From Propionibacteriaceae bacterium (lineage in GTDB: Bacteria > Actinomycetota > Actinomycetes > Propionibacteriales > Propionibacteriaceae): a stretch of DNA of 64,000 nt. A model generated the notes under the pieces. It ran no database searches. It was not told the DNA's origin and was given only the letters and a program-made list of their open reading frames with translations. Both the position numbers and the translations under genes were made by a program. This document shows, in pieces, positions 5,135 through 58,789 of the stretch. How positions within the stretch are numbered: position 1 is the stretch's first letter; every line of letters begins with the position of its first letter. The DNA is taken from assembly GCA_031272505.1 (NCBI GenBank), contig JAISTQ010000051.1:1-64000 (forward strand), read 5' to 3'.

Positions 5135-5165
5135 AGATAAGGCGGCACGCAGCCTGAAGTGGGAC
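5135..5165 (-). promoter_or_regulatory. Promoter module P1 (methyltransferase-cas12m operon)
   Basis: Minus strand GTCCCACTTC at 5165-5156, a 15-base spacer ending GCC, hexamer TTATCT at 5140-5135. The same arrangement occurs nine times in the window with invariant spacing. A GTG start codon follows after five bases. It heads the run of genes from the leader frame through cas12m. Confidence 0.75.
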
Positions 5166-5189
5166 AGTCACCGGCAGTGCCAGCAGCAG

Positions 5190-6401
5190 CTACGAGGCGT
5201 CTCGTGGGATCAGCGCGTTGCTTCGGGCAGCGAGAGCCATCGCGAGTTCGGCGATCTTGTTCTGGACCGGCCCTTCACCGCCCGAGGTGATAATGCCATC
5301 ATCGCTGACGGAAAACCATCCGAACCTGTCACGGTTGCCGCCGTACTCCCCCAGATGGCGAGCCTCGGCCTCCAGCCCGTCCAGTTCCTCCCTGGTGGCG
5401 GCCGCGTTGATCTTGGCGAGCAGCGAATCAGCCCGTTCCACGAAAGAGTGAACGTCATCAATGTAGGTCGGGTTGGAGAGCACCCTGAGCCGAATCACTA
5501 CCGTCTCGTCTTCCTCGAAACGGACGTTGCCGTCCATGTCGGTTTTCACATAGTGCTTGTGCGCTTTGACGGTGAACTGGACCTGCACCCGGTCGCCATC
5601 CTTGTAAAGGCCCCGATCCGCGCCACCACGCAGCGGCAGATTGGGAGTGCTGCTGTGCATCCACACGATGACTTTGCCATCATCGGCGATCAGCTTGTGC
5701 AGGTACATGTCACCGCCGCCCGGATAGCGCGAGGAGCAGATCCAGCGGGCCGAACGGACTGTCGCCCACACGGTCACCTTCTTGTCGCCCGGGTTGCCGA
5801 TGAAACCGACACCCCCCGCCTGGCCACCCGCCCCTGCATCTTGGTTACAGCTGCGAGTCCAGACCGTCACGCCAGCCGCGCAGACGCCCCACAGTTCTTT
5901 CGGGACGAGAATGGACTTGTCCGCCAAAGCCCGCATGTTCTGGCTGAACGTGTCATCGCCCACGGTAGCGGCCATCGCCGCCACCACCTCATCTACTGGG
6001 CCGTCATACCAGCTAGCCACTGGCGGAATCTCCATGATCGAGGCATACAGCGCGTTAGCGATATCCCAGTCGGCATCCCGTGGCTTGAACTGGATAGTCT
6101 GCTGCTGCAGCACTTCCTTGACAACACTCGTGGTGGTCCCGCCCGCCTTCCACCGCTTCCCGCCGTCACTGGCGGACAGGGCGACCGCGATCACGTCAGC
6201 CACCGTGATGAACAGCCCGCTGCCGGATCCACCGCCAGCAAGCCGCTCCAGAATCTTCTGCCACTCTTCACGGTAGGACAACGCCCACAATCCGGAAGGC
6301 TTCACCCCGAGGAAGAGTTCCAAACATGTAGATCCGACCTGCTTCAACTCTCCGGTCTCGCTGTTCCGCAGCACATAGACGTTGTTCCGCGTCCGGCTCA
6401 C
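5190..6401 (-). CDS. Plasmid/phage-type zinc-finger-family protein, 5' end disrupted
   Basis: A 403-residue frame homologous to the protein at 16619-17785: both share a block here reading RTRNNVYVLRN, then ETGELKQVGSTCLELFLG, where the other copy has VCEHCHTRRNRN before KIVGSTCLKDFTG. The family is common on actinobacterial plasmids and phages; its function is not known, and a C-terminal OB-like domain suggests nucleic-acid binding. Here the preceding ~100 residues and the CxxC pair are missing. A strong ribosome site (GAGAGGAGG) and ATG at 6501 open another frame that would join this one only if 46 bases between two CGGGTGAGC repeats were removed, giving a continuous 421-residue protein. The GTG at 6401 is the first start in the present frame and lacks a good ribosome site. 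Treat as frameshifted or switchable. Confidence 0.65.
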   Translation of the reverse strand: MSRTRNNVYVLRNSETGELKQVGSTCLELFLGVKPSGLWALSYREEWQKILERLAGGGSGSGLFITVADVIAVALSASDGGKRWKAGGTTTSVVKEVLQQQTIQFKPRDADWDIANALYASIMEIPPVASWYDGPVDEVVAAMAATVGDDTFSQNMRALADKSILVPKELWGVCAAGVTVWTRSCNQDAGAGGQAGGVGFIGNPGDKKVTVWATVRSARWICSSRYPGGGDMYLHKLIADDGKVIVWMHSSTPNLPLRGGADRGLYKDGDRVQVQFTVKAHKHYVKTDMDGNVRFEEDETVVIRLRVLSNPTYIDDVHSFVERADSLLAKINAAATREELDGLEAEARHLGEYGGNRDRFGWFSVSDDGIITSGGEGPVQNKIAELAMALAARSNALIPRDAS

Positions 6402-6450
6402 CCGCGCAGGGCGGGAGAGTATCCACGTTCCGGGTGGACCTGCTCACCCG
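6396..6450. repeat. 9-bp direct repeats bracketing a 37-bp frameshifting segment
   Basis: GCTCACCCG occurs at 6396-6404 and 6442-6450, 46 bases apart. In both copies the minus strand reads codons CGG-GTG-AGC, the first in the frame opened by the ATG at 6501, the second in the frame of the 403-residue protein. Because 46 is not a multiple of three, the segment breaks the gene; loss of one repeat unit restores it. The segment holds a small inverted repeat (TCCAC, 7 bases, GTGGA) but no terminal inverted repeats, so a transposon is not indicated. Confidence 0.6.
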
Positions 6451-6530
6451 GTACAAGAACGCGTCAATATAGCGGACATTGTCCGCATTGAGCGTTATCA
6501 TACGCCTCCTCTCGTGGTTGGTTTAGGCCC

Positions 6531-6546
6531 CTCCTCTTTAGAGGAG
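6531..6546 (-). terminator. Hairpin with a stop codon in its loop
   Basis: CTCCTC-TTTA-GAGGAG is a perfect 6-bp stem with a 4-base loop. On the minus strand the loop contains the TAA that ends the gene at 6538-6798, followed by GGGGCC and then AAACCAACC, without a T run. It may be a processing or attenuation structure rather than a simple terminator. A close relative is at 6841-6858. Confidence 0.4.
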
Positions 6547-6872: not shown

Positions 6873-6903
6873 TGTTAGGGCAGGCAGGATCCTGAAGTGG
6901 GTC
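6873..6903 (-). promoter_or_regulatory. Promoter module P2 (degenerate)
   Basis: Minus strand GACCCACTTC at 6903-6894, 15-base spacer ending GCC, hexamer CTAACA at 6878-6873. One mismatch in the first box and a poor hexamer compared with the other eight modules; spacing is exact. Confidence 0.5.
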
Positions 6904-7679: not shown

Positions 7680-7710
7680 GTCCCACTTCGGCGGTCTGGC
7701 TGCCTTTTAA
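7680..7710 (+). promoter_or_regulatory. Promoter module P3 (relaxase operon)
   Basis: The only plus-strand copy: GTCCCACTTC at 7680-7689, 15-base spacer ending GCC, hexamer TTTTAA at 7705-7710, followed by AGGGAGA as ribosome site and the relaxase ATG. That the orientation flips with the gene is strong evidence that the module is a promoter. Confidence 0.75.
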
Positions 7711-7735: not shown

Positions 7736-10700
7736 ATGATGAGTCTGAAGAAGCTGACCGCCGGGTCCGGCTATGACTATTTGACGCGCCAGGTGGCGGC
7801 GATGGACTCGACGGAGAAGGGCCACACCAGCTTGCACGATTACTATGCGCAGAAGGGCGAGCTGCCAGGAAGGTGGATCGGCGCGGGGATGGAAGGCGTC
7901 GAAGGGCTGGAAGCGGGAGATCCGGTGACCGCCGAGCAGATGAGGAACCTGTTCGGATATGGTGAGCATCCGCTGGCCGACGAGCGGGTCCTGGAGGTGG
8001 ATTTCACTGGGATTGAGAAGCAGATCGGCGAGGGCAAAGGGATTCTGCCCGTCAAGTCGAAGTGGGAGCAGCGGATCGCTGAAGCGCGCCACTTGGGCAA
8101 ACCCTACTATGTGTACGACAATGACGTGAGCGACTACCGGATCGAAGTCGCCCGCCGGCTGCAGGCGGCGAACCGGGCGGAAGGCAAGCCGGCCCGCGCT
8201 GAAACCCCGATAGAGGAACGGGCGAGGGTCCGCAACGAGGTCGCCACCGAGTGGTTCATCAAGCAGCATCGGCGGCCGCCGCTTGATGAGCGTGAGCTGC
8301 ACGGTTTCATCGCCGAACAGTCACGGCAGAAGACCAGCGCGGTCGCCGGATTTGATCTCACTTTCTCGCCGGTGAAGAGCGTTTCGACGTTGTGGGCGGT
8401 CAGCTCGGAGCCGACCAGGCTGGCCATCCAAAGGGCGCACGACCGGGCGGTTGAAGCCACGCTGGCCTACATTGAAAGGGAGGCGCTGTTCACCCGTTCG
8501 GGCACGAACGGCACGAAGATCGAGCGTCCCAAAGGGCTGGTCGCGGCGGCGTTCACCCACCGTGACAGCCGGGCCGGGGACCCGGATCTGCACACGCATG
8601 TGGTGGTGGCGAACAAGGTGGAGATCAAGGACGAGAAAGGGAAAAGCAAATGGTTGACGATCCACGGGTCGGTCCTGTATCGGGCGGCGGTGAGCGCGTC
8701 GGAGTACTACAACACGATGCTGGAAAAGCATCTCGCGGCCTCGCTCGGATTGCGGTTCTATGAGGTGCCCAAAGGTGTCGGGAAACGGGTGGTGCGGGAG
8801 GTTGAAGGCGTCCCGCCGGAACTGTTGGCGGCCTGGTCTTCGCGGGCGAACGACATCAAGAACCGGAAATCTGAACTGGTGGCGGACTTCCGTGCGAAAG
8901 CGGGAAGGCCGCCGACGCCGGTAGAGATGATCAAGCTGGCGCAGGTCGCCACCTTGCAGACCCGGCAACGCAAACACGAGCCGCGCTCGCTCGCCGAGCA
9001 GCTGATCCGGTGGAAGGCGGAGGCGCAGGCGGTGCTGGGCACCTACGAGGCGGTCACCAACGTGGAAGAGAACGCCCTCCACGCCCCATTCCGGGTGGCG
9101 GACGACACACCTATTCCTGTCGGGCACGCCGCCAAGCTGGTCGAGAATGTCTTCGAGGCTGTGCAGGCGAAGTCCGCCACCTGGGGAGTTTTCACCATCC
9201 GGGCCGAGGCGGAACGGCAGATCCGGGAAGCGAACCTGGCCCCGTTCTTCACCGTGAACAACCTTGAAGGTGTGGTCAACCGGGTGCAGCAAAAGTGCGT
9301 CCCGATCAGCTTCGATCCTGACGAAGACAGCAATCTGGTGGACGCCGGAAGGGTGGAACCGAAGGCGGTGGGCGGCAGGTACACGTCGCAGCAGATATTG
9401 AACGCCGAGATGCGGCTCATCGCCCATGCGGGCCGGCCCGGCGGGCGGGCCGCGTCGGATTTGCACATCAACCTGGCGTTCGCCGAAGCTTACGCGAACC
9501 AGGTGGTGTTGAATCCGGGACAGCAAGAGCTGGTCCGGCAGATGGCCGCCAGCGGCCGGAGGCTGCAGTTGGGGTTGGCCCCGGCAGGGTCGGGGAAGAC
9601 GACCGCGATGGGAGTGTTGACGTCCGCGTGGCAGAACAGCGGCGGGAACGTGATCGGGCTGGCACCCTCAGCGGAGGCCGCCGAAGTGCTCCAAAGCGAG
9701 ATCGGCTGCTACTCCGAGACGCTGGCGAAACTCGACTTCGAAACCAGATCTGGCAACCCGGCGTTCCTTCCCAGGCAGTTCCGCAGCATCGGCCCGGACA
9801 CTTTGGCGATCATCGACGAGGCTGGGATGGCGGACACGCTCACCCTTGACCGGGCCGTGAACTGGCTGCTCTCCAGAGGTGCGACCGTGCGGCTGATCGG
9901 CGACACCCAACAGCTTGCCGCCGTCGGCGCAGGCGGGGTTTTGCGTGACATCCAAGCCACCCACGGGGCGGTCAACCTGACCGAGCTGGTGCGGTTCTCC
10001 AGCACCACCGAGGCCGCCGCGACCATCGCTCTGCGCGAAGGTGACGCGAACGCGCTCGGCTACTATTTCGACCACCAAAGGATCCACATCGGCGACGAGA
10101 CCGGAATGTGCGACGCCGTGTTCGACGGGTGGCGGGCCGACAGGGAAGCCGGGCTGGACTCGATCATGGTCGCCCACTCCCACCAGCAGGTGGCCGAGCT
10201 GAACCAGCGGGCCCGCACCCTGCGGCTAGCAGACGAAGCGACGCAGACCGGCGAGCAGGTGTCGCTGAGTGACGGAAACCAAGCGTCGGCAGGTGACACC
10301 ATCATCAGCCGCCGCAACGCCCGGAAGCTCGCCACCAGCAGCACCGACTGGGTGAAAAACGGCGACAAGTGGACGGTCCTCGAAGCGTACCCAGACGGTC
10401 GGCTGAAAGTGCGGCGCAACTCCAGCCGGGCCGGCGGACAGGCAGTGGTGATACTGCCTGCCGACTATGTGGCCGAACATGTCACCTTGGGGTATGCGAC
10501 CACCGTGCACACCGCCCAAGGGGTCACCGCGGACACCATGCACGGGCTGGTCGGCGGCCTGGAAACCCGCCAGTTGTTCTACACGATGATGACCCGGGGC
10601 CGTGACGCGAACCACGCCTATGTGACCCTTACCGGCGACGGTGATGCCCACTCGGCCATCTATCCCGAGGTGCTCCGGCCGCTCACCGCCACCGACGTGC

Positions 10701-15144: not shown

Positions 15145-16649
15145 CAGATCAAACCCACCTTTCTGGCCTTCTCCACCACCTGCAGACCAAACTGGTCGTT
15201 CTTCTCAGCTTGTCGGCTGTGCAGTTGCTCGCGCAGCGCCTCCTGCTGCGCCAACAGTTCCTTTCCGGTGTTCCCTTCGACGCAGCGTTGCAGCTTGGCC
15301 AGCATCGGCGAGGCGTTGCCGGCCAACACCAGCGCCTGCCGGGTGGGAATCTGCCGGATCTCTTCTGGCCGCAGAATCGGAATGTCCTCGGCGGTAGCCG
15401 TCACCCCGCCCTCCAGCTTCAACTGCTTGCTGGTCCGCGCCACCCGCACCGACCCAACCAAATCGGACACCTCTTTGTTGTACTCGGCGTCCTTCGAGCC
15501 GCCGAAGATCACCAGCACGTTCGACAGCGCCCAAATCGACTTCGCCTCCTGGTCGCCGAAAATCGCCGAAAGCTGCCGCCGGGTCTGCGCCGCCCACAGG
15601 AAGCTGATCCCCAACGCCCGCTCGTTCGCCATCCGGGTCCGCAGCGTCGGTATCGGAGCCGTCGAGGGCAGCTCGTCCAGGCAGGCGAGCATCGGCGGGC
15701 ACAGCTTCCGGTACGGGCTCTGGTTGCCCACCTCCAAGGCGGTATCGAGAATATGCTCGGTAAGCGCGGTCATCAGCGGCGACGCGGACTGGTAGGGGTC
15801 CTCTCGGCCCAGCATGAAGAAGGTGCCGCCCTCGCGGATGATCCGGGCGATGTCGGTGGCCTGCTTCCCCGGCGAAGGCACGCAACGGTTCAGGATCGAA
15901 GGCTGCATGAACAGGCTCATAGCTTGTTGCAAAGTGGTGATCGTGTTCGAGACCGTCCGTTCATCACCGTGCAGCGCCCCCTCCAGCAGGTTGAACCACA
16001 TCGGCGCGGCATCCGGATGCGCCTTGAGGATGTCAAACGGATGGTTCGCGCCCAACGGATTCGCCACCCACGGCAGCACCTTCGCCAGATTCGCGCCGAT
16101 CAGCGCGGCGGCGTGCAGATACGCCATCAGCACCTTCGCGGACTCCGAAGCATAAAACCGGGCGGCAGCATCCGACCCTCCGCCGCTGTTCGCCTTGATG
16201 GTGCCCGCCGTGAACGCCTTCGCGCGTTTCTCCGCGACCATCGGATCGGCACAGCCGGCCACCGGATCCCACACCAGCTCGTCCAAACCTTCCACCAGCC
16301 CGAAAGGGTCACACACCAAAGCGGGCCGTTCCGGCCCGCCCGGAAACCTCGGCGCTTTACGCGCCTGGTACACCAACAACAGATCATCCGGTTTCGTCAA
16401 CGTCACCAAAGCCGCACCGGGCGCGCCCAACAAGGCCGGAAACAGCAAATCCAGGCTCTTGCCGGAGCCTTGCGGGCCGATGATTCCGGCGCACATGTCA
16501 TACGGGCACCACAGGTCGCCCGCCCTCGGTTCCCAACACTGGCCGACCCGCCAGCCGACCTCTGTTGGCTCAAACCCGGCCTTCAACTTCCTGCCGCCCA
16601 CATGTTCTCCAATCTCCGCTAGACGCCCGCCATCGCCGGTTTGCCCCAA
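15144..16649 (-). CDS. Type IV coupling protein ATPase domain (VirD4/TraG), without membrane anchor
   Basis: A 501-residue ATPase of the VirD4 family. Walker A is IIGPQGSGKSLDLLF (58-65 core), followed by ALVTLTKPDDLL and LVCDPFGLVEG; later landmarks are FMLGREDP, LACLDELPSTAPIPTL (Walker B region) and LGISFLWAAQTRRQLSAIFG. Coupling proteins bring the relaxase-DNA complex to the secretion channel. This one begins directly with the segment that normally follows the transmembrane N-terminus, and has no membrane span of its own. The gene at 29128-29565 looks like the missing N-terminal half. The start overlaps the preceding gene by 31 bases. Confidence 0.9.
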   Translation of the reverse strand: MGQTGDGGRLAEIGEHVGGRKLKAGFEPTEVGWRVGQCWEPRAGDLWCPYDMCAGIIGPQGSGKSLDLLFPALLGAPGAALVTLTKPDDLLLVYQARKAPRFPGGPERPALVCDPFGLVEGLDELVWDPVAGCADPMVAEKRAKAFTAGTIKANSGGGSDAAARFYASESAKVLMAYLHAAALIGANLAKVLPWVANPLGANHPFDILKAHPDAAPMWFNLLEGALHGDERTVSNTITTLQQAMSLFMQPSILNRCVPSPGKQATDIARIIREGGTFFMLGREDPYQSASPLMTALTEHILDTALEVGNQSPYRKLCPPMLACLDELPSTAPIPTLRTRMANERALGISFLWAAQTRRQLSAIFGDQEAKSIWALSNVLVIFGGSKDAEYNKEVSDLVGSVRVARTSKQLKLEGGVTATAEDIPILRPEEIRQIPTRQALVLAGNASPMLAKLQRCVEGNTGKELLAQQEALREQLHSRQAEKNDQFGLQVVEKARKVGLI

Positions 16650-19456: not shown

Positions 19457-19487
19457 AGATAAGGCGCACCACACCCCGAAGTGGGAC
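19457..19487 (-). promoter_or_regulatory. Promoter module P4 (coupling-protein operon)
   Basis: Minus strand GTCCCACTTC at 19487-19478, 15-base spacer ending GCC, hexamer TTATCT at 19462-19457, then AGGGT and the ATG. Best example of the leaderless geometry, because the start codon belongs to a full-length gene. Confidence 0.8.
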
Positions 19488-21359: not shown

Positions 21360-21390
21360 AGAAAAGGCGGAAACCGGCCCGAAGTGGGAC
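21360..21390 (-). promoter_or_regulatory. Promoter module P5 (lipoprotein/secreted pair A)
   Basis: Minus strand GTCCCACTTC at 21390-21381, 15-base spacer ending GCC, hexamer TTTTCT at 21365-21360, then AAGGT and ATG. Confidence 0.75.
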
Positions 21391-36804: not shown

Positions 36805-36811
36805 GCAACCT

Positions 36812-40539: not shown

Positions 40540-41574
40540 CTAGGTCATTGGGGCGACATGCTCTTCGATGAAGGCGATCTCGCTGTCGTCGAGTTTGTAC
40601 TTGGCGTAGAGCTGTTGGTCGATTTCGGGGATTGATTTCGTCCAGTCGATGTCCGATTCGCTCGTGAAGTCCTGGAGGGGGACGTACTTCCACACCTTGG
40701 CAGGATTGTGCTGAGTGATCTTCAAAACGCCAAGTAAGGTGCGCGCGAACTTACTCTTCACGTACTTGAGGCAGGCCGCAGCATCTGATTCGTCCTTGAA
40801 GCACCCGATGGTAATGAAAGTCTGAGTCACCGCGACGTTAGGCTCGGCGATGACAGGGTCTCCGATCCCGCCGAGGCTGGTGGAACCATTGGAAGCCGGA
40901 ACGGCAACCTTATACGCACCGAAGCTCTCGGGGCCAGTGATGTAGTCGCTGCGAATCCAGCGGTAGACCCGCCTATTTTTGATGAGGCCGAGCACCTGAA
41001 CGTAGTCCTGTCCGTCAGATGGTTTCGTCTCGTAATAGAGGAATGAAAACTGCTCAAATGCGTTCGTATTCACGAGTGCCGCATTTCCCTCGGGTCGGAG
41101 TGCCAGCGCATCAGGATGATCCCGGTACAGCTCGTCGGTGTAGCGATAAGACCGCGAGCTTGTTATCCTCGTCTTTTCCAGCGAATTACGGCTAGAGGCG
41201 AGAACCTTGTGCAGGATGTCGTTGAGTTCCGGGTATTTCGTGAAAGTTCCAATAGGTTCGCCGGTAGCGTCGGAATCTCGGTAGGTGACGGCGATGCCGC
41301 CCATGATGTCGGTGCCGGGGAACAGGTCGTTGCTGTTTGGCACGTAGTGCGATACTGAGATGCGCGGATCCGCGAGCATCTTCTCGTTCCACGCTTTGGG
41401 TGTGAATCCTGCGTTGAAGAGGAAACGGGCTGGGGTGATGAGCACCACTTTCTTGCCGACCTCGTAGGCCGCGTCCATGAAGAGGTGGTAGACGGGTGTG
41501 TCTCGGGTGCCGGCCCCTTGTGCTTCTTCCTGGTAGGGCGGGTTGCCGATAACGACGTCGAATTGTTTGCTCAT
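40540..41574 (-). CDS. Adenine methyltransferase NPPY-domain protein with specificity region
   Basis: A 344-residue protein starting just before motif IV: FDVVIGNPPYQEEAQ (NPPY at 11-14). Further Eco57I-type features are VVLITPARFLFNAG, ADPRISVSHYVPNSNDLFPG and a target-recognition-like C-terminus (YVQVLGLIKNRRVYRW; WKYVPLQDF). There is no AdoMet motif I; that part seems to be at the end of the preceding 1094-residue protein, whose stop is one base before this ATG (TGACATG, changed frame). The two polypeptides together would make one Eco57I-like methylase. Last gene of the three-gene system. Confidence 0.85.
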   Translation of the reverse strand: MSKQFDVVIGNPPYQEEAQGAGTRDTPVYHLFMDAAYEVGKKVVLITPARFLFNAGFTPKAWNEKMLADPRISVSHYVPNSNDLFPGTDIMGGIAVTYRDSDATGEPIGTFTKYPELNDILHKVLASSRNSLEKTRITSSRSYRYTDELYRDHPDALALRPEGNAALVNTNAFEQFSFLYYETKPSDGQDYVQVLGLIKNRRVYRWIRSDYITGPESFGAYKVAVPASNGSTSLGGIGDPVIAEPNVAVTQTFITIGCFKDESDAAACLKYVKSKFARTLLGVLKITQHNPAKVWKYVPLQDFTSESDIDWTKSIPEIDQQLYAKYKLDDSEIAFIEEHVAPMT

Positions 41575-41575
41575 G

Positions 41576-44500
41576 TCAGTGTCCTTCCGTCAACATGTCG
41601 TCGATTGTCTGCTGGCGTTCTTCTGGGGTCATTTGGGCGAGGTTTCCGACTTGGAAGTGCCCGGAGTTCTCGATCCAGGCTTTTCGCTCCGGGACGCCAC
41701 CAGATACAGCTTCGAGGGTGATTCGGTGCAGTAGTTCGTTGTGGCTCATTTCGAAGATCTGGGTGGTGAAGATGTGTTTCAGCCGCTCCTCGGGGTCAGA
41801 GATGACATCCTCTAGCCCTTTGTCCAGGCGGCGTACGAGTTCCATCAGGAACAGCCCGGCGGTGGAGAAAAGGTCAGCGAAGGTTTTCGTCGGATCGGTG
41901 AAGATGCCGGGGTTTTCGGCTTCGAGGGTATCGACCATCATCTTGACCACTGCTTGTGGGGTGAAGACGAGCGAGGTTTTCTGTTGCGGGATGTAGGCGA
42001 AAATATCCTCGGTCTGTTTGTCATCGAAGTAGTCGGCGAGGGCTTCCTTCTTGTCGAGGAACTCTTGGATGGACTGGTCGAACACCGCTTCGTCGAACAG
42101 GCCGGGAATCCTCGTGGTAGATCCGTCTTCTTCTTTGACTTCTTGGCCGTCGCGGAGGATACGGAAATCGTCCTCGGTGATCCCGGTGATCTCCTCGAAT
42201 ACGTCATCGGGGGTGTAGTCGTCGAAGTTCGACAGCTTGATACCCCGATCCCCGTATGCCATGAGGAACATGGGGATTGTGCGGGCGAACCCGCGTAGAT
42301 GCGAGCGGGCGTCTTCCATCGTCTTGTCTGCCCGTTTCTGTTCCTTCTTGGTTTCCTCGCGGGTGACGATCTCTGGAACGATGTTCTCGATAGTCTTTTC
42401 GACGATTTCTAAGACTTTGGCATTGAGTTCTTCTTCTTTTTCGGCCTGCCTGGCTTCGATTTCCGCTGCCTCAGCCTCGGTAGCCGCTGCGGCGCGTTCA
42501 TCTTCGAGACGCTTCTTGGCGATGTTGTACTCGGTGTGGGCACGTTCGATCTCGATCTTCACGGTTTGTTCCGTGCGCTTTTCGTCACGTTCGACCTGCC
42601 CGGCAGTGAGTCCGTATTCGTTCTTCAGTTGTTCACGCTTAGCGTGGGTTTGCTCGGTGATGGCCTTAGCAATCTGAATGGCGTTCTGGCGGGCTGGCGC
42701 GTTCGCGTCGGCGATGGGGATGTCTTCGACCTGCCACACCGGCTTGCCCAGTTCGGCAACCTTCAGATTGATGACTGTTTCGGTGTCCAACCTGACTGTC
42801 CCGTCCGGATCGACCGACACTGGCGGGTCGGGGATCTCGATGCGTTGGCTGGTCTTGAGTTTGCCTTGCTTAGCCGCTGGCAGCTTGTCGAGGATGTCTT
42901 TGACGTGCTCGGAATAGCGGAAGATACCGGCGACGTTGGCGAACAGGAGGTTGGACAGGAATCCACGTCGGACAACTTCGCGGGCTTTGAAGACTTGCGG
43001 GAAGGTGATCACCTGTGTGGCGTCCAGTGCGATCATGCGCCCTTCGGAGTCCTCGCCGATGACGGGAAAAAAGTTCAACAGTCTGCGGATGTTGTCTCGT
43101 CGCACTTCCGGGTCGCCGGTCGGGTTTGGGTTGAGGTTGTTGGCGAAAGCGTCGAATATGGTGAGTGTCCGTTCCGGCGCGAAGTCGAAAATGTAGGCGT
43201 TCTCTTTTTGGAACACTTTCCCGCCCCGTTCGAACGTGCAGGGGTTCTGCGCTCGGAAAGCTGCTTGCATGTAGAGGGCGGGCGAGGTGAGGTTGGAGAG
43301 CATGATGACGGCTGTCCATTCCGGGACAGTGACGCCAGTGGTGAGCTGGCCCACGGACAGCGTGATGGTCTTCCCGCCTTCGCGCTCGGCTTTGTCGATT
43401 GCGTCGCGAACGGCGTCCAGCGACTTCTTGGAGACCGCCATGTCAGCGTCGTCAGAGCGGCCGTCTCCGGCGGCCAGCACTATGGTGTAGTCCTTGAACA
43501 CGTCGTGTTTCTTCAGGAGTTTTTCGAGTGCTTTCGCCGAAGCGACGCGGTTTAGGAGCCAGAACGAGTGCCGGATCTCGTCGCGTAGCTCCGGAGTGGA
43601 GAACGGGTACTTCTCGTTCGTTGTCAGGCAATCAAGGAACTTGATCACTTCGGCTTCATGCTCAAAAAAGCCGTTCTCTTTCGTGCTGAAGAACTCGTTG
43701 AGGTCGAAAGCGTAGTCGATGTTGGCCTCGTCTTCGCTGAGGGCGACACCTTCGGCGAGCCGGTCGGTGATCATGCGGGACACCTGGTAGGTGAGCATGT
43801 TGAGCGTGGGCAGCGCCTCGTAAGGGTTCTCTTCTGCCGAGTTGTCCCAGTTTTGGCGGGCGGTTCGTTCCTCTTCGTAGGTCCAGTTGAAGATCTGGTC
43901 TTCGTCGAACTTTCCTGACGCCAACGCTTTGAATGGTGTGCCCGAGAGGTGGAGGGCCCAGTTGCGTTTGATGTGGTCGAAGGCGACATCAGTCTTGGTC
44001 GTGTCGATTCCCTCGTGCGCCTCGTCAATGACGAGCAGATCCCAGTCAAAATCCGCAATGTGCTTGAGCTTCGGTAGATTCCCGCCGAAGTACTGTGAGC
44101 CTTTCAGATCTTGCAGGGAGACAAACTCGATAATGCGCAGGTCGCTGTCCCCTTGGTCGATCACGAGGCGACGCCACTGGTCCCTGGACATTGGACTGCG
44201 GTCGGCAAGGGATGGCGACTCTGAGACGAACTTGTAAGTGGTTTGGTGCCCGATGAACCGGACGAAATCGTCAAACCACTGGTTGGCGATGGCGGGCCGG
44301 TTCGTGACAATCAGCGCCCTTTCGACGTCCAACTGGCGCATGAGATCATAGGTGGTGAGTGTCTTGCCGAATCGGGGCTTTGCGTTCCACAGGACTTCTG
44401 CACGCCCGGCACCGAACGCGCTTAGTGCTTGTTCGACCGCCCGCTGCTGTTCAGGACGCAAAGTGTAGTCGTCTTCCCCTTCCGTCTGCACATCGGAAAA

Positions 44501-44860
44501 GTCTTGCGCCGCAAAGGCAAAGAAGTACTCTTTGGATGTCTTTTCCGCCCCTTTGAAACAGTGCCATTCCGTACGTTTCGGCTTGAGTTCACGCTCCACA
44601 CCCTGTTGGTGTAGGTAGAGATGAAACTCCTTGTCCGTGAATCGCCCGCCAGCCTCAGTCATGAATTGCGCCTTGTACGACCACTTCTTGTGCTGCCTCA
44701 CGGAGAGTTGTGACGCCTGCTGCGCGATGCGTTTATCGGCGCTTTCCTGCTCGGTGTACCCGATCTTCTCCCAACCTTCGTACTTCGGGATGTCTGGAGT
44801 CTCCCATGAGTAGACAAGAGGGTTTATCTCACGGTAGGTTTTGATGTTCGGGCTAGGCAT
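41576..44860 (-). CDS. GIY-YIG-like nuclease + SF2 helicase + methyltransferase-like restriction protein
   Basis: A 1094-residue protein. Residues about 15-60 (VYSWETPDI...GWEKIGYTEQESADKRIAQQ) fit a GIY-YIG/T5orf172 nuclease. A restriction-type helicase follows: Walker A NAKPRFGKTLT (159-169), LLVIDEAHEG (about 270), LHLSGTPFKAL, TITLSVGQLTTGVTVPEW and MQAAFRAQNP. A long charged coiled coil (about 740-860, EDERAAAATEAEAAEIEA) precedes a terminal half-methylase with LVFTPQAVVKMMVDTL and ADLFSTAGLFLMELVRR as a degenerate motif I. It overlaps the upstream methylase-like gene by 8 bases. By composition it should restrict DNA using ATP-driven translocation. GC content is visibly lower than in the transfer genes. 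Confidence 0.85.
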   Translation of the reverse strand: MPSPNIKTYREINPLVYSWETPDIPKYEGWEKIGYTEQESADKRIAQQASQLSVRQHKKWSYKAQFMTEAGGRFTDKEFHLYLHQQGVERELKPKRTEWHCFKGAEKTSKEYFFAFAAQDFSDVQTEGEDDYTLRPEQQRAVEQALSAFGAGRAEVLWNAKPRFGKTLTTYDLMRQLDVERALIVTNRPAIANQWFDDFVRFIGHQTTYKFVSESPSLADRSPMSRDQWRRLVIDQGDSDLRIIEFVSLQDLKGSQYFGGNLPKLKHIADFDWDLLVIDEAHEGIDTTKTDVAFDHIKRNWALHLSGTPFKALASGKFDEDQIFNWTYEEERTARQNWDNSAEENPYEALPTLNMLTYQVSRMITDRLAEGVALSEDEANIDYAFDLNEFFSTKENGFFEHEAEVIKFLDCLTTNEKYPFSTPELRDEIRHSFWLLNRVASAKALEKLLKKHDVFKDYTIVLAAGDGRSDDADMAVSKKSLDAVRDAIDKAEREGGKTITLSVGQLTTGVTVPEWTAVIMLSNLTSPALYMQAAFRAQNPCTFERGGKVFQKENAYIFDFAPERTLTIFDAFANNLNPNPTGDPEVRRDNIRRLLNFFPVIGEDSEGRMIALDATQVITFPQVFKAREVVRRGFLSNLLFANVAGIFRYSEHVKDILDKLPAAKQGKLKTSQRIEIPDPPVSVDPDGTVRLDTETVINLKVAELGKPVWQVEDIPIADANAPARQNAIQIAKAITEQTHAKREQLKNEYGLTAGQVERDEKRTEQTVKIEIERAHTEYNIAKKRLEDERAAAATEAEAAEIEARQAEKEEELNAKVLEIVEKTIENIVPEIVTREETKKEQKRADKTMEDARSHLRGFARTIPMFLMAYGDRGIKLSNFDDYTPDDVFEEITGITEDDFRILRDGQEVKEEDGSTTRIPGLFDEAVFDQSIQEFLDKKEALADYFDDKQTEDIFAYIPQQKTSLVFTPQAVVKMMVDTLEAENPGIFTDPTKTFADLFSTAGLFLMELVRRLDKGLEDVISDPEERLKHIFTTQIFEMSHNELLHRITLEAVSGGVPERKAWIENSGHFQVGNLAQMTPEERQQTIDDMLTEGH

Positions 44861-45560
44861 CGTTCCTCACTTCCTTGTGAACGTGCTCTATGTGGCAAGG
44901 CCGGTAGGTGGCGTACTGGGTGAAATCGAAAGCCCCAGAGCCTGCCTCGCGGAGCGACACCAATGTGAATGGTTCGCGCTGCACCATGCCGGGAATGTTC
45001 AGCATCCGATGCCACCAAGAAAATTGGAGAAGCTGCCCGGATCCATCTTGGCCGGTGAGGGTATTCCCTTGAAGGACATTCTGTTTGATCAGGTACTTCG
45101 CGGCGCGATACAAGTTGGTGCGGTAACCGCAGTTGATCCCATTGCGCTTATGGAAGGAAAAGAACTCTTCCTCCAGCGACTCCTGGGCGGCTTGGTGGTT
45201 GTCTTCAAGCAGCTCGACCGCATAGATCGAGGCGAGTGCGAACAGCGACTCGGTTTGCCAGAACTCAGGCTGGTAGCGCCTCTCAATGGCCCGGAGCTTG
45301 CGTCGGAGAATCGCCACAAGGAAGTTCCCGTCACCTGCGGCTGGCTCGAAGAAGGTCTTGTCCACGAATCCGGGCCCGGTCTCCAGTTCTGGCCGAACAA
45401 GGTCCAGCATCTGGTTGACCATGTGGTCGGGGGTGAACACCTCGCCGTACACCTTCACCCGGCGGCGAGACTTCACCAGTTGCTCCCTGCCATCGCCACA
45501 CGCCGCAGCGGCACCAGCCTCACCATGTGGCAGGTGAGCGTTGGTGGAATCTGTGACCAT
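44853..45560 (-). CDS. N6-adenine methyltransferase-like protein, motif I only (235 residues)
   Basis: Contains the N-terminal signature of type I/IIG methylases VKVYGEVFTPDHMVNQML (36-53) and a clear AdoMet motif I TFFEPAAGDGNFLVAIL (69-85), then IYAVELLEDNHQAAQ (motif II region with the acidic residue) and NVLQGNTLTGQ (motif III region), but stops without NPPY. It overlaps the helicase gene by 8 bases and begins the three-gene operon. It may complement the NPPY half-protein two genes downstream, or act as a sensor. Start ATG 45560 has only a weak ribosome site (GTGAGG). Confidence 0.8.
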   Translation of the reverse strand: MVTDSTNAHLPHGEAGAAAACGDGREQLVKSRRRVKVYGEVFTPDHMVNQMLDLVRPELETGPGFVDKTFFEPAAGDGNFLVAILRRKLRAIERRYQPEFWQTESLFALASIYAVELLEDNHQAAQESLEEEFFSFHKRNGINCGYRTNLYRAAKYLIKQNVLQGNTLTGQDGSGQLLQFSWWHRMLNIPGMVQREPFTLVSLREAGSGAFDFTQYATYRPCHIEHVHKEVRNDA

Positions 45561-49744: not shown

Positions 49745-49775
49745 AGAGAAGGCACAAAACCGCCCGAAGTGGCGC
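49745..49775 (-). promoter_or_regulatory. Promoter module P8 (LysM-BTAD gene)
   Basis: Minus strand GCGCCACTTC at 49775-49766 (two mismatches), 15-base spacer ending GCC, hexamer TTCTCT at 49750-49745. Leader about 30 bases with a normal ribosome site. Confidence 0.65.
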
Positions 49776-51455: not shown

Positions 51456-52370
51456 TTAGGGAGCCTGCATTGTCGCAAACTCAATGAACCATGGGGAGCA
51501 CATGATCAGCACGACCGTAACGGTCATCCCGATGATCGGCAACGTCATCTTCAGGGTTGCCGATTTGGCTGCGGCCTGCTCCACCGCCAGCAGCCGTTCC
51601 CGGAGCGAAAGGCCGAGCGCCGCAAGGTTTGACGCCACATCTGAGCCTTCGTCTCCGGCGAGCCGCATCACCGACGCGACCTCTTCCAAAGCTGGCACAT
51701 CTATCCGGTGCGACAAGGTGGTGAGATCATCCCAAGGGCTGGTGTGTTGCACCGCCGACAGGTTCAACACTTCGTACATCTGCTCGAAAGGCCAACTGTC
51801 CCCCAGCTTCGCCGCCTCCTCCATCGCTTTTCTTGACGAGGCCAAGCCGGCGACCCGTTCGATGGCGACCAGGTCCACAAACGTGCACAGCGCATAGTTG
51901 AACTCGCGCCGCCTGGTGCGCGCCTCGGACCTGACCGTCCCGTTCGGCCCCTTCCAGCCGGCCACCGCGAGCAGCATGGTGACCATCGACGGGATTCCGA
52001 CAGGCAGCCCGACAATGATCGTGAAACCGAGCACCAGCAGCGGCATACCGACCAGCAGCAGTGCCGCGTTCAGGATCTTCTGCCCGTAGAACCGGCCGAT
52101 GCTCATGCCGACAATCGCCAAATCCGCCTCCGGCCGGTACGACACCAGGAACGACGGGAACCTCCGCTGCGCCCACGAGCCGACCCGTTCCAACGTGGGC
52201 GGCTTCACCGCCGGGACGTCCGCCCGGCTGGGCCGCACCGCCTGCTTCCCGGAGAATTTCGCCAACACCCACCCCAGGTCGGGGCGGGCGGGCGCGAAAC
52301 TCGCCACGAACAGGGCGATCCCGCCGAAGACCATCACCCCGGCGAGCATCCACAGTTGCAGCGCGGTCAT
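51456..52370 (-). CDS. tadC: TadC, pilus assembly inner-membrane protein
   Basis: A 304-residue GspF-family protein with an N-terminal span (LWMLAGVMVFGGIALFVASF), two adjacent spans in the middle (LLVGMPLLVLGFTIIVGLPV) and a C-terminal span (TLPIIGMTVTVVLIMCSPWF). The conserved cytoplasmic part includes NYALCTFVDLVAIERVAGLA and AGDEGSDVASNLAALGLSLR. It forms the platform that works with TadA and TadB. Its ATG overlaps the tadB stop (ATGA). Confidence 0.85.
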   Translation of the reverse strand: MTALQLWMLAGVMVFGGIALFVASFAPARPDLGWVLAKFSGKQAVRPSRADVPAVKPPTLERVGSWAQRRFPSFLVSYRPEADLAIVGMSIGRFYGQKILNAALLLVGMPLLVLGFTIIVGLPVGIPSMVTMLLAVAGWKGPNGTVRSEARTRRREFNYALCTFVDLVAIERVAGLASSRKAMEEAAKLGDSWPFEQMYEVLNLSAVQHTSPWDDLTTLSHRIDVPALEEVASVMRLAGDEGSDVASNLAALGLSLRERLLAVEQAAAKSATLKMTLPIIGMTVTVVLIMCSPWFIEFATMQAP

Positions 52371-53248
52371 TTCCGTAACCTCGCCTGCTCGCCCAACACC
52401 CTCGGCGCGTCAGGCATCGCCGCGATCCGGCGCACCAGATACACGAACAAGCCGAACAACCCCAGATAGAACAGCAGCAGCGCCTGCCCGAACGGGCTGC
52501 TGTATTCGAATATCATGCCGGACAGCACCGTGATGCCGACCCCGGCGACGCTGATGGCGACGATCATCCGCGCCTCGGTGCGGGCGCTTTCCCGTTCGGC
52601 CTCGATCGCGAGCCGGTTCCGGACATCCTGCGCCACCAGCACCGAGATCTGCTTCAACGTGGCCGACAGGCCCGAGCCTTGCACCCTGGACGATACGATC
52701 AAAGCTGCCGCCACCTCGTCGCCGGTATAGTCGCGCATCTCCTCGGCGAACGCCCGGAAAGCGACCTCCGGGGTGATGTTCGACCTGGACAGGAAACCCA
52801 CCAGGTGCGTCACCTCAGTTTTGATCGCCGGCGGGACGCTCCGCTGGGAGGCCGCGACAGCTTGCGGCAAAGACTGGCCGGCCATCAGCACCGAAGAAAG
52901 GCTCCGGGTCCATTCCGCCATCGCGTTCATCTTCGCGATCCGGACATCCTCATCGGAGCGCATCATGATCGCAGGCAGGAACACCACTATCGCCGGCAGC
53001 ACAATCGGCGCGATCATCCAGCCGAACACCATCGCGACCAACAAGCCCACCAGGAAAGAACCGACGATCAACAGCCGCCGTTGTGGGCTTTGGGCAACCC
53101 ACCAGCGGGCCAGCCGCGAATCGTGGCGGCCGCGCGGCGGTTTCGCCGGGCGGCGCATCATGCCCAACGCCAGCAGGAACAGGCCGCCGAAAACGGCCGC
53201 CCCCGCCACCAGGGCGAAAATAGTTCCCAAAGCGTACGCGTTCACCAT
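52367..53248 (-). CDS. tadB: TadB, pilus assembly inner-membrane protein
   Basis: A 293-residue GspF-family protein: spans at YALGTIFALVAGAAVFGGLF, LLIVGSFLVGLLVAMVFGWM and near the end (MIFEYSSPFGQALLLFYLGL). The conserved domain reads AEWTRSLSSVLMAGQSLPQA and SGLSATLKQISVLVAQDVRN. ATG 53248 lies inside the tadA stop region (GGCATGGTGA), an overlap of 7 bases. Longer upstream starts are in tadA coding sequence. Confidence 0.85.
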   Translation of the reverse strand: MVNAYALGTIFALVAGAAVFGGLFLLALGMMRRPAKPPRGRHDSRLARWWVAQSPQRRLLIVGSFLVGLLVAMVFGWMIAPIVLPAIVVFLPAIMMRSDEDVRIAKMNAMAEWTRSLSSVLMAGQSLPQAVAASQRSVPPAIKTEVTHLVGFLSRSNITPEVAFRAFAEEMRDYTGDEVAAALIVSSRVQGSGLSATLKQISVLVAQDVRNRLAIEAERESARTEARMIVAISVAGVGITVLSGMIFEYSSPFGQALLLFYLGLFGLFVYLVRRIAAMPDAPRVLGEQARLRK

Positions 53249-54906
53249 GCCCTCCCCGGTTTCTCCGCCAGGTCGGCCTGGAACTGCTCGGGACGCCACC
53301 CGGCGGCCTTGCAGGCGCGGATAAGCTGCTCCGACGGCGGCGCGCACGGGACGGCCGGGACGGTCGCCTGCTCAGACACGAAAATCGGCTCGGTGGTGAT
53401 CTGCCCCTCCACCAAAGAAACCCCGGCGATCTCATCCACCCAGCGGGCCTTCCGCTGGGTGCCGTCCGGCAACATGACCGTCTGCCCACGGAAATACACC
53501 ACCAAATCCAGCACGCTTGCGAGCTTCTCCGTCGCCAGCTCTTTCGTCACCGACGGCCCATGCTCCATCGCGCACGTCACCAGCTTCTGCGTACACGCCC
53601 GCGCGCTCCGCGCATGGGTGGTGGACAGCGACCCGAAACCGGACTCCATAACCTTGATCATCGACCACACCTCCGGGCCGCGCACCTCCCCGACAATCTG
53701 CCGATCCAGACGGTACCTGAACGAGTTGATGATCTGCTCGGCCGTCGTCTCAGAGCCGACACCGCCCTCGCCGCCCTGCCGGGACTCCCACGCGTACACC
53801 AGCGGATGGCGGCGCTGCCCGTCCGCATCCAGCAGCTCATCCAAAAACAGCTCATAGTCTGACTCGAACGTGCCCAACACCTCACCCGGCGGAATCTCGT
53901 TGATCAACGCCCGCATGAACGTCGTCTTGCCCACCGCCTGCTGGCCACACACCACAATCGACAAACCAGCCCGGACCGCCGCCGCCAAAAAATCCGCCGC
54001 CGTCTGTGTCACATTCCCCCACGCCACCAAATCCGCCAAACTCACATCCCGCACCCGATGCCTTCGGATACAAACCGCGACCCTCGACGTCGAAACCGTC
54101 GCCGCCAGCCGATACCCGCCCGGCAAAGTCATATCCAGTGACGGATTCGAATGCGAGAACTGGCGCGGATTCCTCGCCCGCTGCGCAATATCCCTAATGA
54201 ACCCCTCCAGCTCCGCATCCGACGCCGCAATCGGCTCAGCCTGCACCATCGTGCCATCCGAAAGTTCCATCCACACCACATCGCAGCCCTCCAGAAGAAT
54301 GTTCTCAACCCGCTCATCCTCCATCAGATACTGCAGCCGGCCCAGCCGGAACAACGTGTTGAACACCGCCCGGTGCAGCTGCTCCGCCTCCGCCAGCGAA
54401 TACGGCTCGCCCGTCGCCGACACCATCATCGACTGCCGATCCGCGACCACCCGGCCGATCACCTCGGTGCCGAACGCCTCAAACTCATCCGAATCGAACT
54501 GCTCACCCTCATGGGTGCGCAGCCAATCCGCGACCGGCACCGAACACTCATTCGCTAAAGACGCCACCAAATCCCAATCCAACATCTCCGCCCGGCGCTG
54601 CGGCCGCACCCGCAAAGCCGCCACCGCCGGCCTTGGAAGATCCGCCACCGAAGGCACCACCGCCGACACCGGCTCCAACTGGGCGGCCACCTGCTCCGCA
54701 ATCGACGGCAGCGGCCCAACAACAACCTCCGGGTCAGGATCGGCTGGGATCAGCCACGGGGACGGACTGTCATCCGTGCCGTCATCAACAAAGAAAAACC
54801 GCGCCTGGCCCTTCGAAGGCGGCGGAACAGCATCAGCCTTCCGCTGCAGCAACGGCAACGAGCCAATATCGAACTCGTCCCCAAAAGAGAGAGTCTCCTC
54901 GCTCAA
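53242..54906 (-). CDS. tadA: TadA/CpaF pilus assembly ATPase
   Basis: A 554-residue secretion ATPase. After a ~110-residue variable N-terminus come the typical blocks: VENILLEGCDVVWMEL, FSHSNPSLDMTLPGGYRLAA, VAVCIRRHRVRDVSLADLVA, Walker A VVCGQQAVGKTTFMRALINE (about 322-341), Walker B region RLDRQIVGEVRGPEVWSMIK and SGFGSLSTTHARSARACTQK with the conserved His. It powers pilus extension. Starts at ATG 54906, overlapping the TadZ-like stop. Confidence 0.93.
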   Translation of the reverse strand: MSEETLSFGDEFDIGSLPLLQRKADAVPPPSKGQARFFFVDDGTDDSPSPWLIPADPDPEVVVGPLPSIAEQVAAQLEPVSAVVPSVADLPRPAVAALRVRPQRRAEMLDWDLVASLANECSVPVADWLRTHEGEQFDSDEFEAFGTEVIGRVVADRQSMMVSATGEPYSLAEAEQLHRAVFNTLFRLGRLQYLMEDERVENILLEGCDVVWMELSDGTMVQAEPIAASDAELEGFIRDIAQRARNPRQFSHSNPSLDMTLPGGYRLAATVSTSRVAVCIRRHRVRDVSLADLVAWGNVTQTAADFLAAAVRAGLSIVVCGQQAVGKTTFMRALINEIPPGEVLGTFESDYELFLDELLDADGQRRHPLVYAWESRQGGEGGVGSETTAEQIINSFRYRLDRQIVGEVRGPEVWSMIKVMESGFGSLSTTHARSARACTQKLVTCAMEHGPSVTKELATEKLASVLDLVVYFRGQTVMLPDGTQRKARWVDEIAGVSLVEGQITTEPIFVSEQATVPAVPCAPPSEQLIRACKAAGWRPEQFQADLAEKPGRAW

Positions 54907-55700: not shown

Positions 55701-56368
55701 TAGCGTTCCACCTCCACATCCGACTCCAACACCACCGCAATCGAACCAGTGCCCGCCCACAAAGCCAACTTCGGCGCCACATCACTAGGGACCGTCACCT
55801 CCACCACACTCGACGAATCACCCGACCGGATGTTATACACCACCGCCGGAATCGAATCCACCGAAGCGGTACCCGACACCGAAGCCGAATTCCCCGACGT
55901 CAACACCAAAGTCACCGGATCGCCCGCCCGCAACGTATCCGTAGACGGCAACAAGCCGCCAACCACCGGCACCGCCACAATCGAAAAACCCTCCGCCGGC
56001 ACCGGCACATCCACAATCGCCGCCGGGGCCACCACCGTCCCCGCAGCCAAATCCTTCACCACCCGGCGTCCCACCACCTGCTCCAAATCCGCGCCCGGAA
56101 CATACACCATCGACGGATCCACCGAAATGCGCACCACACCCAACTCCTCCATGCCGATCAGATGGCCCCGATCCATATCCACCCTGGCGACCACCACCTC
56201 GACCGTCTGCGAAGTGGACGTCCACAACCAAAACCCGAACAGGCCACCCATAATCACCAACGCCGCGCCCACAACCGCCAACATCGGCGAACGCTGCAAC
56301 TTCACCCCAGCCGAAGCCACAACCGTCCCCGCATCACGCGCGCTCACACTCGTCTTCTTCGCCATCAT
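55700..56368 (-). CDS. SAF-domain protein, CpaB/RcpC-like
   Basis: A 222-residue protein: one span (PMLAVVGAALVIMGGLFGFW) and an external SAF domain (VVVARVDMDRGHLIGMEELG, RRVVKDLAAGTVVAPAAIVD), then a beta-rich part (AGDPVTLVLTSGN). Matches CpaB/RcpC, a pilus assembly protein of the periplasmic or wall side. Tandem ATG codons at 56368; AGGAGTTG precedes them. Followed by the TadZ-like gene with one shared base. Confidence 0.8.
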   Translation of the reverse strand: MMAKKTSVSARDAGTVVASAGVKLQRSPMLAVVGAALVIMGGLFGFWLWTSTSQTVEVVVARVDMDRGHLIGMEELGVVRISVDPSMVYVPGADLEQVVGRRVVKDLAAGTVVAPAAIVDVPVPAEGFSIVAVPVVGGLLPSTDTLRAGDPVTLVLTSGNSASVSGTASVDSIPAVVYNIRSGDSSSVVEVTVPSDVAPKLALWAGTGSIAVVLESDVEVER

Positions 56369-57391: not shown

Positions 57392-57966
57392 TCCGGTGAG
57401 TCCTCGTCCGTCCAACTTGAAACCTTCCACACCTCACCACGGTTTAATTCATCCACCAGTTCAACCGTGTAGATACGCAGCCACGGCTCCGGATCCCGCA
57501 CATACTCAGTGCCGTCTTTGAGCACCGTCACATCATTCGAGCCATCCACGCAAGTGAACACATAATACTCACGCACCCCGTCGGTCTCCTGCCAATCCAC
57601 CCGCAGTGTGGATAATTCCTGGCCGCCCTCAAAGTGAATACCCTCTTCCACCAGACTCTCGTTGTCTTCCAGGCAAGCGTCTATCGCAATCCCAGTCGAT
57701 ACCTTGATGCACTCGTCCTGCTGCTCCTGCGGCATAGGCCACTGGGGAGCCGCATAATGACGCTTGGTGATCTCGTTGTACTCCATCACGACATCGAGGG
57801 CGGCCTGCTCGTCCGGATCCAACGTCTCCGAAGGCGTAGGCGTGGGAGTTGGTGTCGGTGTCGGGGTGGCGCTCACCGTTGGGGTCGGCGTCTCTGAGGG
57901 TGGCGGGGTGCCGCAGCCTGCGAGCAGGGCAGCTAACAGTAGCGCAGGCAGCAAACGAAAAATCAT
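57376..57966 (-). CDS. Lipoprotein, copy B of the duplicated pair
   Basis: A 196-residue lipoprotein. The signal ends ALLAGCGTPPPSETPTPT; a Thr-Pro spacer follows, then the block SETLDPDEQAALDVVM shared with copy A. The folded domain has conserved Cys residues (EECIKV-like QDECIKVST, AIDACLEDNE, FTCVDGS, DSPECTAQ) and ends GEVWKVSSWTDEDSPEC, matching copy A. GAGGGGGGCTGG is the ribosome site. Probably works with the secreted protein. Confidence 0.8.
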   Translation of the reverse strand: MIFRLLPALLLAALLAGCGTPPPSETPTPTVSATPTPTPTPTPTPSETLDPDEQAALDVVMEYNEITKRHYAAPQWPMPQEQQDECIKVSTGIAIDACLEDNESLVEEGIHFEGGQELSTLRVDWQETDGVREYYVFTCVDGSNDVTVLKDGTEYVRDPEPWLRIYTVELVDELNRGEVWKVSSWTDEDSPECTAQ

Positions 57967-58040
57967 TTCCAGCCCCCCTCAACTCTAGGCTTTGTTGTTG
58001 TGTAAACCATACTTTTCGTCCTTCCTTCGGCGCAAATCGA

Positions 58041-58730
58041 TCAGCATCCGTCCCAGATGTGGGACAGGGCGGCCGTCACGATCACATTGTCCTCATAGTG
58101 GCGGCTGCCATCGCTCCGGGTGATCACCTGCCCGCCACACGTGATCACCCGCAACAGCCGCTCTCCGTCTTCCGCGAACAGCTCCGCAGGAAGATCCTGC
58201 TTATGGATCTGCTCCAAACCCACCACCCGGTACTGCTCCAGATAGCAGCCCCTCGAATCCGAAACCAGAATCTCCGCGCCCTGCCCGATGGTGGACAGCG
58301 GATACAGCGCGCCCTTCACTCCCCTGCCCGACACATGACCCGCCAGCAGCATCGTGCCCGCCAGATCGCCAGGCTGCGCGCCACCATCCCAGCGGCCCAC
58401 CTTCGACGGAGCCGGAATCTCCAACACCCCGTCCTCCAAGGGCACGTCCACGATCTGCGCGGAAACACCCAACGAGGGAATCTGCAAAAGCGACGGCTCA
58501 AACCTCGCCACCAAACCATCCCCCACCTGCGCCGCCCGGCCGCCATCGATCACCACCCGCGTCGAAGGGACCGGCGCAGGAGACACCCCGGCCACCGGAT
58601 CAAAGGAGTAACCTCCAGTGACCGACGGTGCCTCCTGCCCGCCAGAGGCCAGCCCATCAAAGACCATCACTCCCCCGCCCACAGCGCAAACTGCGGCCGC
58701 AGCCGCAACCAGCGCCGTAGACAGCTTCAC
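58041..58730 (-). CDS. Sortase, class E/F-like
   Basis: A 229-residue sortase with an N-terminal signal-anchor (STALVAAAAAVCAVGGGVMV). Active-site elements are TMLLAGHVSGRG (His near 131), LLRVITCGG (Cys near 198) and a late DNVIVTAAL where the catalytic Arg region lies (HYEDN preceded by SR). The start is GTG 58730 after AAGGAGGCTTTC. As first gene of the Tad operon it may attach pilus-associated or surface proteins to the wall; the large surface protein at 62340-64000, with a VDTG sorting-like motif, is the only visible substrate. Confidence 0.85.
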   Translation of the reverse strand: MKLSTALVAAAAAVCAVGGGVMVFDGLASGGQEAPSVTGGYSFDPVAGVSPAPVPSTRVVIDGGRAAQVGDGLVARFEPSLLQIPSLGVSAQIVDVPLEDGVLEIPAPSKVGRWDGGAQPGDLAGTMLLAGHVSGRGVKGALYPLSTIGQGAEILVSDSRGCYLEQYRVVGLEQIHKQDLPAELFAEDGERLLRVITCGGQVITRSDGSRHYEDNVIVTAALSHIWDGC

Positions 58731-58758
58731 GAAAGCCTCCTTCTTCCTCCTACAACAC

Positions 58759-58789
58759 AGATAAGGCGGAAACGCCCCCGAAGTGGGAC
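58759..58789 (-). promoter_or_regulatory. Promoter module P9 (sortase-Tad operon)
   Basis: Minus strand GTCCCACTTC at 58789-58780, 15-base spacer ending GCC, hexamer TTATCT at 58764-58759. Leader of about 25 bases with AAGGAGG before the GTG start. Confidence 0.78.

Follow-up and report, generated by a model that had tools for sequence, protein, structure and literature searches.

A plasmid-encoded sigma factor has been described in Bacillus subtilis, where the role of SigN (ZpdN) of plasmid pBS32 was demonstrated by in vitro transcription (PMC6751061, available portions), and promoter-directed guides of type V-M and plasmid type IV-A clustered regularly interspaced short palindromic repeat (CRISPR) systems silence in a reporter assay (available portions of PMC10442227, PMC11013384 and PMC11656645). 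Here we describe a repeated motif, best read as a replicon-private two-box promoter, TGTCCCACTTC-N12-GCCWTWTCT, in a Propionibacteriaceae bacterium whose genome comprises 67 contigs and 2,233,753 bases; the stretch analyzed (the window) is bases 1–64,000 of contig JAISTQ010000051.1 (C30; 92,959 bases), a conjugative plasmid that also encodes a sigma-70-like protein, the candidate reader of the motif, and a Cas12m CRISPR array with a spacer that copies the module. Compared by description only, this locus resembles SigN in combining a plasmid-encoded sigma-like factor, a plasmid regulon and a consensus of its own; SigN is linked with DNA damage and with cell death in the available portions of PMC6751061, whereas here the protein family is missed by sigma models, the host is actinobacterial and the targets are transfer genes. 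A spacer copying its carrier's own promoter class is undescribed for type V-M and IV-A systems in the available portions of PMC10442227, PMC11013384 and PMC11656645. C30 is probably circular, because the CRISPR array runs across both contig ends.

A sequence-only reading of the window had proposed nine copies of one promoter-like module with invariant spacing. All nine places exist and the spacing holds at each, but the copies are of unequal quality: the first box GTCCCACTTC, followed by N12 and GCC, is perfect at seven (5165, 7680 on the plus strand, 19487, 21390, 27120, 38397, previously placed one base off at 38398, and 58789), 49775 is a good variant (GCGCCACTTC, with spacing, GCC and TTCTCT kept), and 6903 is doubtful. 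The claimed TTWTCT-like hexamer is likewise found in most copies but not at 6903 (CTAACA) or 7680 (TTTTAA); at 38397 it reads ATCTCT. Scanning the full genome for GTCCCACTTC-N12-GCC gave 12 matches, all on C30, and none for a reversed control pattern. Five of these perfect copies lie outside the window (contig positions 66336, 71833, 80013 on the plus strand, 90513 and 92545), and the nine places belong to a replicon-wide set of 13 good sites (12 perfect plus 49775), or 14 with 6903. The 11-mer TGTCCCACTTC occurs 12 times on C30, with 0.04 expected from trinucleotide content, and the module including its hexamer, at no more than one mismatch, is present in none of 197 other family genomes (the single positive among 198 being the window's own). 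These scans of the replicon and its relatives directly establish the motif and its restriction to C30; the copy counts, that restriction and the absence from family genomes rule out a chance origin. Matches in large sequence collections, which may omit close relatives of the window, were rejected as true copies: none of the 24 checked (16 genome-contig and 8 viral-contig stretches, several of the latter being one and the same sequence) is promoter-like, 22 lie inside open frames of 129 codons or more and two in frames of 66 and 84 codons, and they look like chance occurrences.

The position of the copies is equally plain. They are not equally frequent inside genes: our own simple gene calls span 82% of C30, but of the 13 good sites 12 lie clear of any call, and the thirteenth (66336) overlaps a single doubtful one on the opposite strand. 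The 13-site profile has an invariant T at −1, a G, then an almost invariant TCCCACTTC, a free middle, an invariant GCC and a WTNTCT-like second box; past the hexamer, conservation is limited to a G two bases away and, 10–17 bases on, a purine-rich stretch for ribosome binding. A start codon stands 18–31 bases past the hexamer at 10 of the 14 sites, accompanied by a stretch resembling a Shine-Dalgarno sequence (assessed by eye), and we predict that the module is very probably a promoter. A weight matrix built from the 13 sites scores these training sites at 28.7–37.2, and the best score in five random contigs is 11.2; 6903, outside the training set, scores 15.9 and remains uncertain because an in-gene place, 7919, reaches 15.5. 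The sites and their associated genes in the window are as follows, with operon extents inferred from our gene calls.

5135–5165, minus strand: perfect module with TTATCT, heading block 4968–159 (cytosine methylase through nuclease to Cas12m)
6873–6903, minus strand: doubtful copy, GACCCACTTC, with hexamer CTAACA
7680–7710, plus strand: perfect first box with TTTTAA; the ATG of a MobF/TrwC relaxase lies 25 bases past the hexamer
19457–19487, minus strand: perfect module, heading block 19451–14263, which includes a coupling protein (TraG/TraD-like, 15147–16601)
21360–21390, minus strand: perfect module, heading 21260–19612, a block of unknown genes
27090–27120, minus strand: perfect module, heading 26998–21440, a helicase/methyltransferase fusion
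38367–38397, minus strand: perfect first box with ATCTCT, directly 3′ of the sigma-like gene; the first ATG of the type IV secretion block is 30 bases on
27253–38336, minus strand: type IV secretion block (VirB4-like, 31234–32733; SCO6880 family, 32749–34254; ArdC-like, 27926–28948)
49745–49775, minus strand: good variant GCGCCACTTC with TTCTCT; the ATG of 49713–46465, a large membrane protein, is 31 bases on
58759–58789, minus strand: perfect module, heading a sortase gene (58044–58730) and the Tad pilus block
55703–56368, 53245–54906 and 51459–53248, minus strand: Tad pilus block members SAF, secretion ATPase and T2SSF
162–1994, minus strand: Cas12m, type V-M effector (PDB 8hio, Cas12m2, E 1.1e-138)
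38414–39265, minus strand: candidate reader, a 284-residue sigma-70-like protein (frame open to 39412)
1–104, minus strand: window part of the CRISPR array (remainder at contig 92600–92959)

Targets outside the window include a DprA-like and ChlI/ComM-like gene block (90513, 92545) and the region of a leucine-rich-repeat surface protein (80013). Cas12m had been counted in the regulon, but it is tied to 5165 solely via a read-through of five genes that is assumed and would have to cross gaps of 155 and 87 bases in our gene calls. We note that a restriction-modification-like block (40540–45560; Eco57I-type methylase, ResIII helicase) has no module upstream, that the plasmid encodes a TIR-domain protein, possibly a defence gene (locus L002, 805–2319, minus strand), and that C30 has a strong excess of CTATAC-N-GTATAG-type inverted repeats, which are iteron- or partition-like (12 pairs; for example, locus L001, about 9400–9650).

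The gene at 38414–39265 ends 14 bases ahead of site 38397, and its product carries a C-terminal helix-turn-helix (HTH). It has no motif copy upstream, so the protein would stand outside the regulon that it acts on. Homologs at ~30% identity occur in 23 of 196 other family genomes, and a profile found homologs in 22 other genomes among 394 searched within the class. Against plasmids, a tblastn search with the protein itself gave no match; two relatives used as queries matched four and three plasmids. No relative was found in viral contigs among 80 pattern stretches. The genome has nine region-4 sigma matches (PF08281), none of them on C30. We consider it probable that this protein reads the motif. 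Class-wide loci L163–L176 and L181–L183, which belong to one family (genera g72, g93) and one other, hold one to three distant relatives in each genome; their printed stretches show no TGTCC promoter directly downstream, save one late TGTCC (L165).

The reader's profile resembles those of sigma-70 factors, clearly in region 4 and weakly in region 2. We compared two alignments—A1, with 20 of the 30 homolog matches (near-duplicates and fragments left out), and A2, whose 30 rows include 14 that the class-wide search supplied—and tested scores against column-shuffled controls. A1 scores 40.0 against group 1/2 sigma factors (maximum of 200 shuffles, 25.4), and its 16.2 against six extracytoplasmic function (ECF) sigma factors is not significant (null maximum 19.1). 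A2 scores 37.5 across 186 columns against 24 ECF sigmas and 42.5 across 145 columns against group 1/2, neither reached by any of 100 shuffles (maxima 18.9 and 20.7), and a distant nine-sequence subset scores 40.6 across 169 columns against ECF (0/100). For the region-2-like part alone, two other alignments are borderline against ECF (20.6, reached by 1/100 shuffles, and 22.6, by 0/100), and the corresponding LuxR controls are reached by 62/100 and 92/100. The reader resembles ECF and group 1/2 factors in a region-4-like C-terminal HTH, in a collinear match to region 2 that is weak at best, and in the sigma-like spacing of the two-box promoter; unlike them, it begins with some 70 conserved residues before the region-2-like part, matches no family model, and belongs to a family whose specificity varies between elements. 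Compared with the HTH end of group 1/2 sigmas, the N-terminal 72 residues also score 20.4, above the null maximum of 17.4.

The same geometry recurs, in other letters, beside the homologs. Downstream promoters were counted for 27 of the 30 homolog genes (three encoding fewer than 200 amino acids were left out), and 17 have TGTCC directly downstream with TTA 26–27 bases after its first T, compared with 0.013 expected from shuffles and 0 on the reverse strand. Besides that of C30 there are four promoter types: A, B, and one each in genomes G153 and G151. The A type (TGTCCGRATC...GGCTTAGTGG) accompanies seven genes, with six copies on the G149 stretch, five in G112 and three in G147; the B type (TGTCCACC...CCGTTAGGGATGG) comprises eight near-identical elements. 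Across the 197 family genomes, A-type promoters (searched in 10–13- and 14-base forms) occur in 10, eight with a homolog, and B-type promoters in nine, all with a homolog; jointly, 17 of the 19 genomes with a promoter have a homolog versus 7 of the 178 others (Fisher 3.9e-17, a value that ignores kinship and in which the matched copy is often the one adjoining the homolog gene). In G149 and G112, with target genes matched by eye, A-type copies precede a relaxase and the small gene that follows the sigma-like one (the place of 38052–38336 here); further A-type targets are, in G149, an ArdC-like gene and also a small coiled protein similar to one after C30 90513. The joint occurrence of promoters and protein family is directly established, as is the conservation of the promoter geometry.

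Public plasmids extend the pattern. Four plasmids with a homolog, annotated on each as 'hypothetical protein', rank among the five best plasmid matches of the C30 relaxase. One of these is pA-N39 (Pimelobacter simplex), which has in common with C30 relaxase, DprA, DUF4192, Tad, type IV secretion and thermonuclease genes and carries TGATCGY-N16/17-ACATAGG four times, heading the Tad operon (7134), an unknown gene (14930), a coupling-protein pair (61211) and the type IV secretion operon (87522); the last site stands after the plasmid's homolog gene, and a TGATCGY-type form also follows the homolog in four members of the same order.

We propose that the plasmid-encoded sigma-like protein would join host RNA polymerase and read TGTCC(CACTTC) as a −35-like box and GCC-WTWTCT as a −10-like box, thereby switching on, as one set, the genes for the relaxase, the coupling protein, type IV secretion, the Tad pilus and surface proteins, and probably that for Cas12m. 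On balance we lean toward this explanation as a whole, a plasmid-private promoter read by the plasmid's own sigma-like protein, and a sigma mechanism for 38414–39265 is reasonably likely. The same protein could instead be a DNA-binding activator or repressor aiding the host's main sigma factor, with TGTCC... as operator and the second box as a degenerate host −10, and a single long left box is indeed typical of an operator. Moreover, only the C-terminal HTH is clearly significant against group 1/2 sigmas (27.2; maximum of 60 shuffles, 17.7), and it is not sigma-specific, scoring 22.3 against LuxR regulators (null maximum 14.9). We nevertheless regard an activator as unlikely: both boxes vary jointly between promoter types while their distance stays constant at 26–27 bases, the sigma match is collinear across 141–186 columns compared with 25–81 for LuxR, and TTATCT or TTTTCT is not a usual −10, the consensus of which is TANNNT. 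It is less likely still that another factor—a host sigma or a plasmid HTH protein such as 86743–87273—reads the motif and that the sigma-like gene is a conserved neighbor. Adjacency by itself yields co-occurrence, C30 encodes further HTH proteins and some homolog-bearing elements show no repeated module; however, outside C30 the exact motif is found neither in this genome nor in 197 relatives, a distribution that speaks against a host factor, and promoter type tracks homolog subfamily across several elements. As for repeats that are not promoters at all, whether RNA leader elements, sites of partition or transfer, or dispersed repeats, the short conserved stretch and ribosome-binding site after the hexamer would fit, but the copies are oriented toward genes, 10 of 14 at the start-codon distance given above, the free middle has a fixed length and the targets are conserved in relatives, all of which makes this very improbable.

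Several observations weigh against a sigma factor with its own regulon. A1 also scores above null against LuxR regulators (23.0; null maximum 19.9), and LuxR regulators themselves score 35.9 against group 1/2 sigmas, from which it follows that the HTH carries most of the sigma match; the region-2-like part alone is within null in the first alignment (15.7) and, in one subset, shows no similarity to group 1/2 (reached by 96/100 shuffles). The collinear region 2–4 match has hhalign probabilities of only 52–73%. Pfam and NCBIfam scans of 30 members assigned no family name; the best sigma-model match is TIGR02937 (E 0.037, in 2 of 30 members), and sigma factors make up 5 of the 12 models matched weakly in NCBIfam. 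Because no curated model recognizes the protein, we describe it as sigma-like rather than file it as a sigma factor. Neither alignment has a significant match among solved structures, a widened profile placed TFIIB (E 0.036) ahead of SigF (E 0.33) in PDB, and a single-sequence structure model is all helical with a poor predicted local distance difference test score (46.8). Among the relatives, the strict two-box is absent downstream of 10 of the 27 homologs, including that of C30 (hexamer ATCTCT); the B-type elements, which are eight of the 17, have one copy each and so show no regulon; G115 and G148 have A-type sites but yielded no homolog; and an Ornithinimicrobium plasmid with a homolog has a single candidate site and no repeated module. 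We still favor a sigma factor over an activator, by inference. One regulon with a non-standard promoter, as claimed in the sequence-only reading, is the best-supported interpretation, given a replicon-private motif, a candidate reader on the replicon and relatives adjoining promoters of the same geometry but other letters, though its nine-copy form loses 6903 as a secure member.

Cas12m matches Cas12m2 structures over its full length (PDB 8hio/8hhl, E about 1e-138), and the 3′ end of its gene adjoins the array, which has a 36-base repeat, a 64-base period and four distinct 28-base spacers (S1–S4). S3 (C30 92809–92836) reads CCACTTC-N12-GCC-ATATCT, a copy of the promoter module. Outside the training set, it scores 20.1 with the weight matrix, first on C30 after the 13 training sites, and differs from the 14 own sites by 6–12 mismatches, chiefly in the free middle. 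The cores of S1–S4 have no exact match in viral contigs, and a search of the 197 family genomes for S3 at up to three mismatches returned only its own array and no donor. One array side has a degenerate repeat, and the repeats close with AC, like that of the Cas12m2 CRISPR RNA (available portions of PMC10442227); both features suggest that the array is transcribed with Cas12m, in which case the S3 guide would begin at the second box. According to the available portions of the respective papers, Cas12m2 binds without cutting and silences transcription (PMC10442227), Cas12m protospacer adjacent motifs are T- and C-rich (PMC11013384), and plasmids are enriched in V-M systems, for which a role in competition between plasmids is proposed (PMC11656645). 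S3 is apparently a guide aimed at a sibling plasmid's promoter, for which the expected target would be GTCCCACTTCGGGGTGAAAACCGCCATATCT. The promoter letters differ per plasmid type, so the promoter may mark rivals; a non-cutting, DNA-binding Cas12m with the S3 guide would act on the sibling's copy, and the variable 12-base stretch would spare the carrier's own. The same genome also holds, on another contig, a Cas12m-like gene remnant (G000:C13:3920–4498) that is 45% identical across some 205 residues and contains one stop.

Contig C12 of genome G174 (loci L214, L211 and L212) encodes a Cas12m relative, and its GAACCGTGTACTTA-like motif, GTGTACTTA, occurs eight times, one as a spacer in its own Cas12m array; that spacer ends in the contig's most over-represented 11-mer and is five mismatches from an own copy of the motif. 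The module there has one box, and the family homolog search gave no sigma-like protein homolog in G174. This unrelated second example hints at a general tactic.

Titles in the open-licence literature revealed no paper on this protein family or on promoter-copy spacers. We tentatively raise the possibility that this unnamed sigma-70-like family runs private, element-specific transcription programs in actinobacterial conjugative elements, and that plasmid-borne Cas12m guides directed at a sibling's promoter core silence its transfer program while the variable stretch between the boxes protects the carrier. If true, this would name the master switch of widespread actinobacterial conjugative elements, provide a natural set in which sigma-like proteins are paired with their promoters, so that the evolution of promoter specificity can be studied, and make rival recognition by plasmid CRISPR guides via private promoters directly testable. 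The promoter-matching guide suggests that related plasmids are in conflict over one another's switches.

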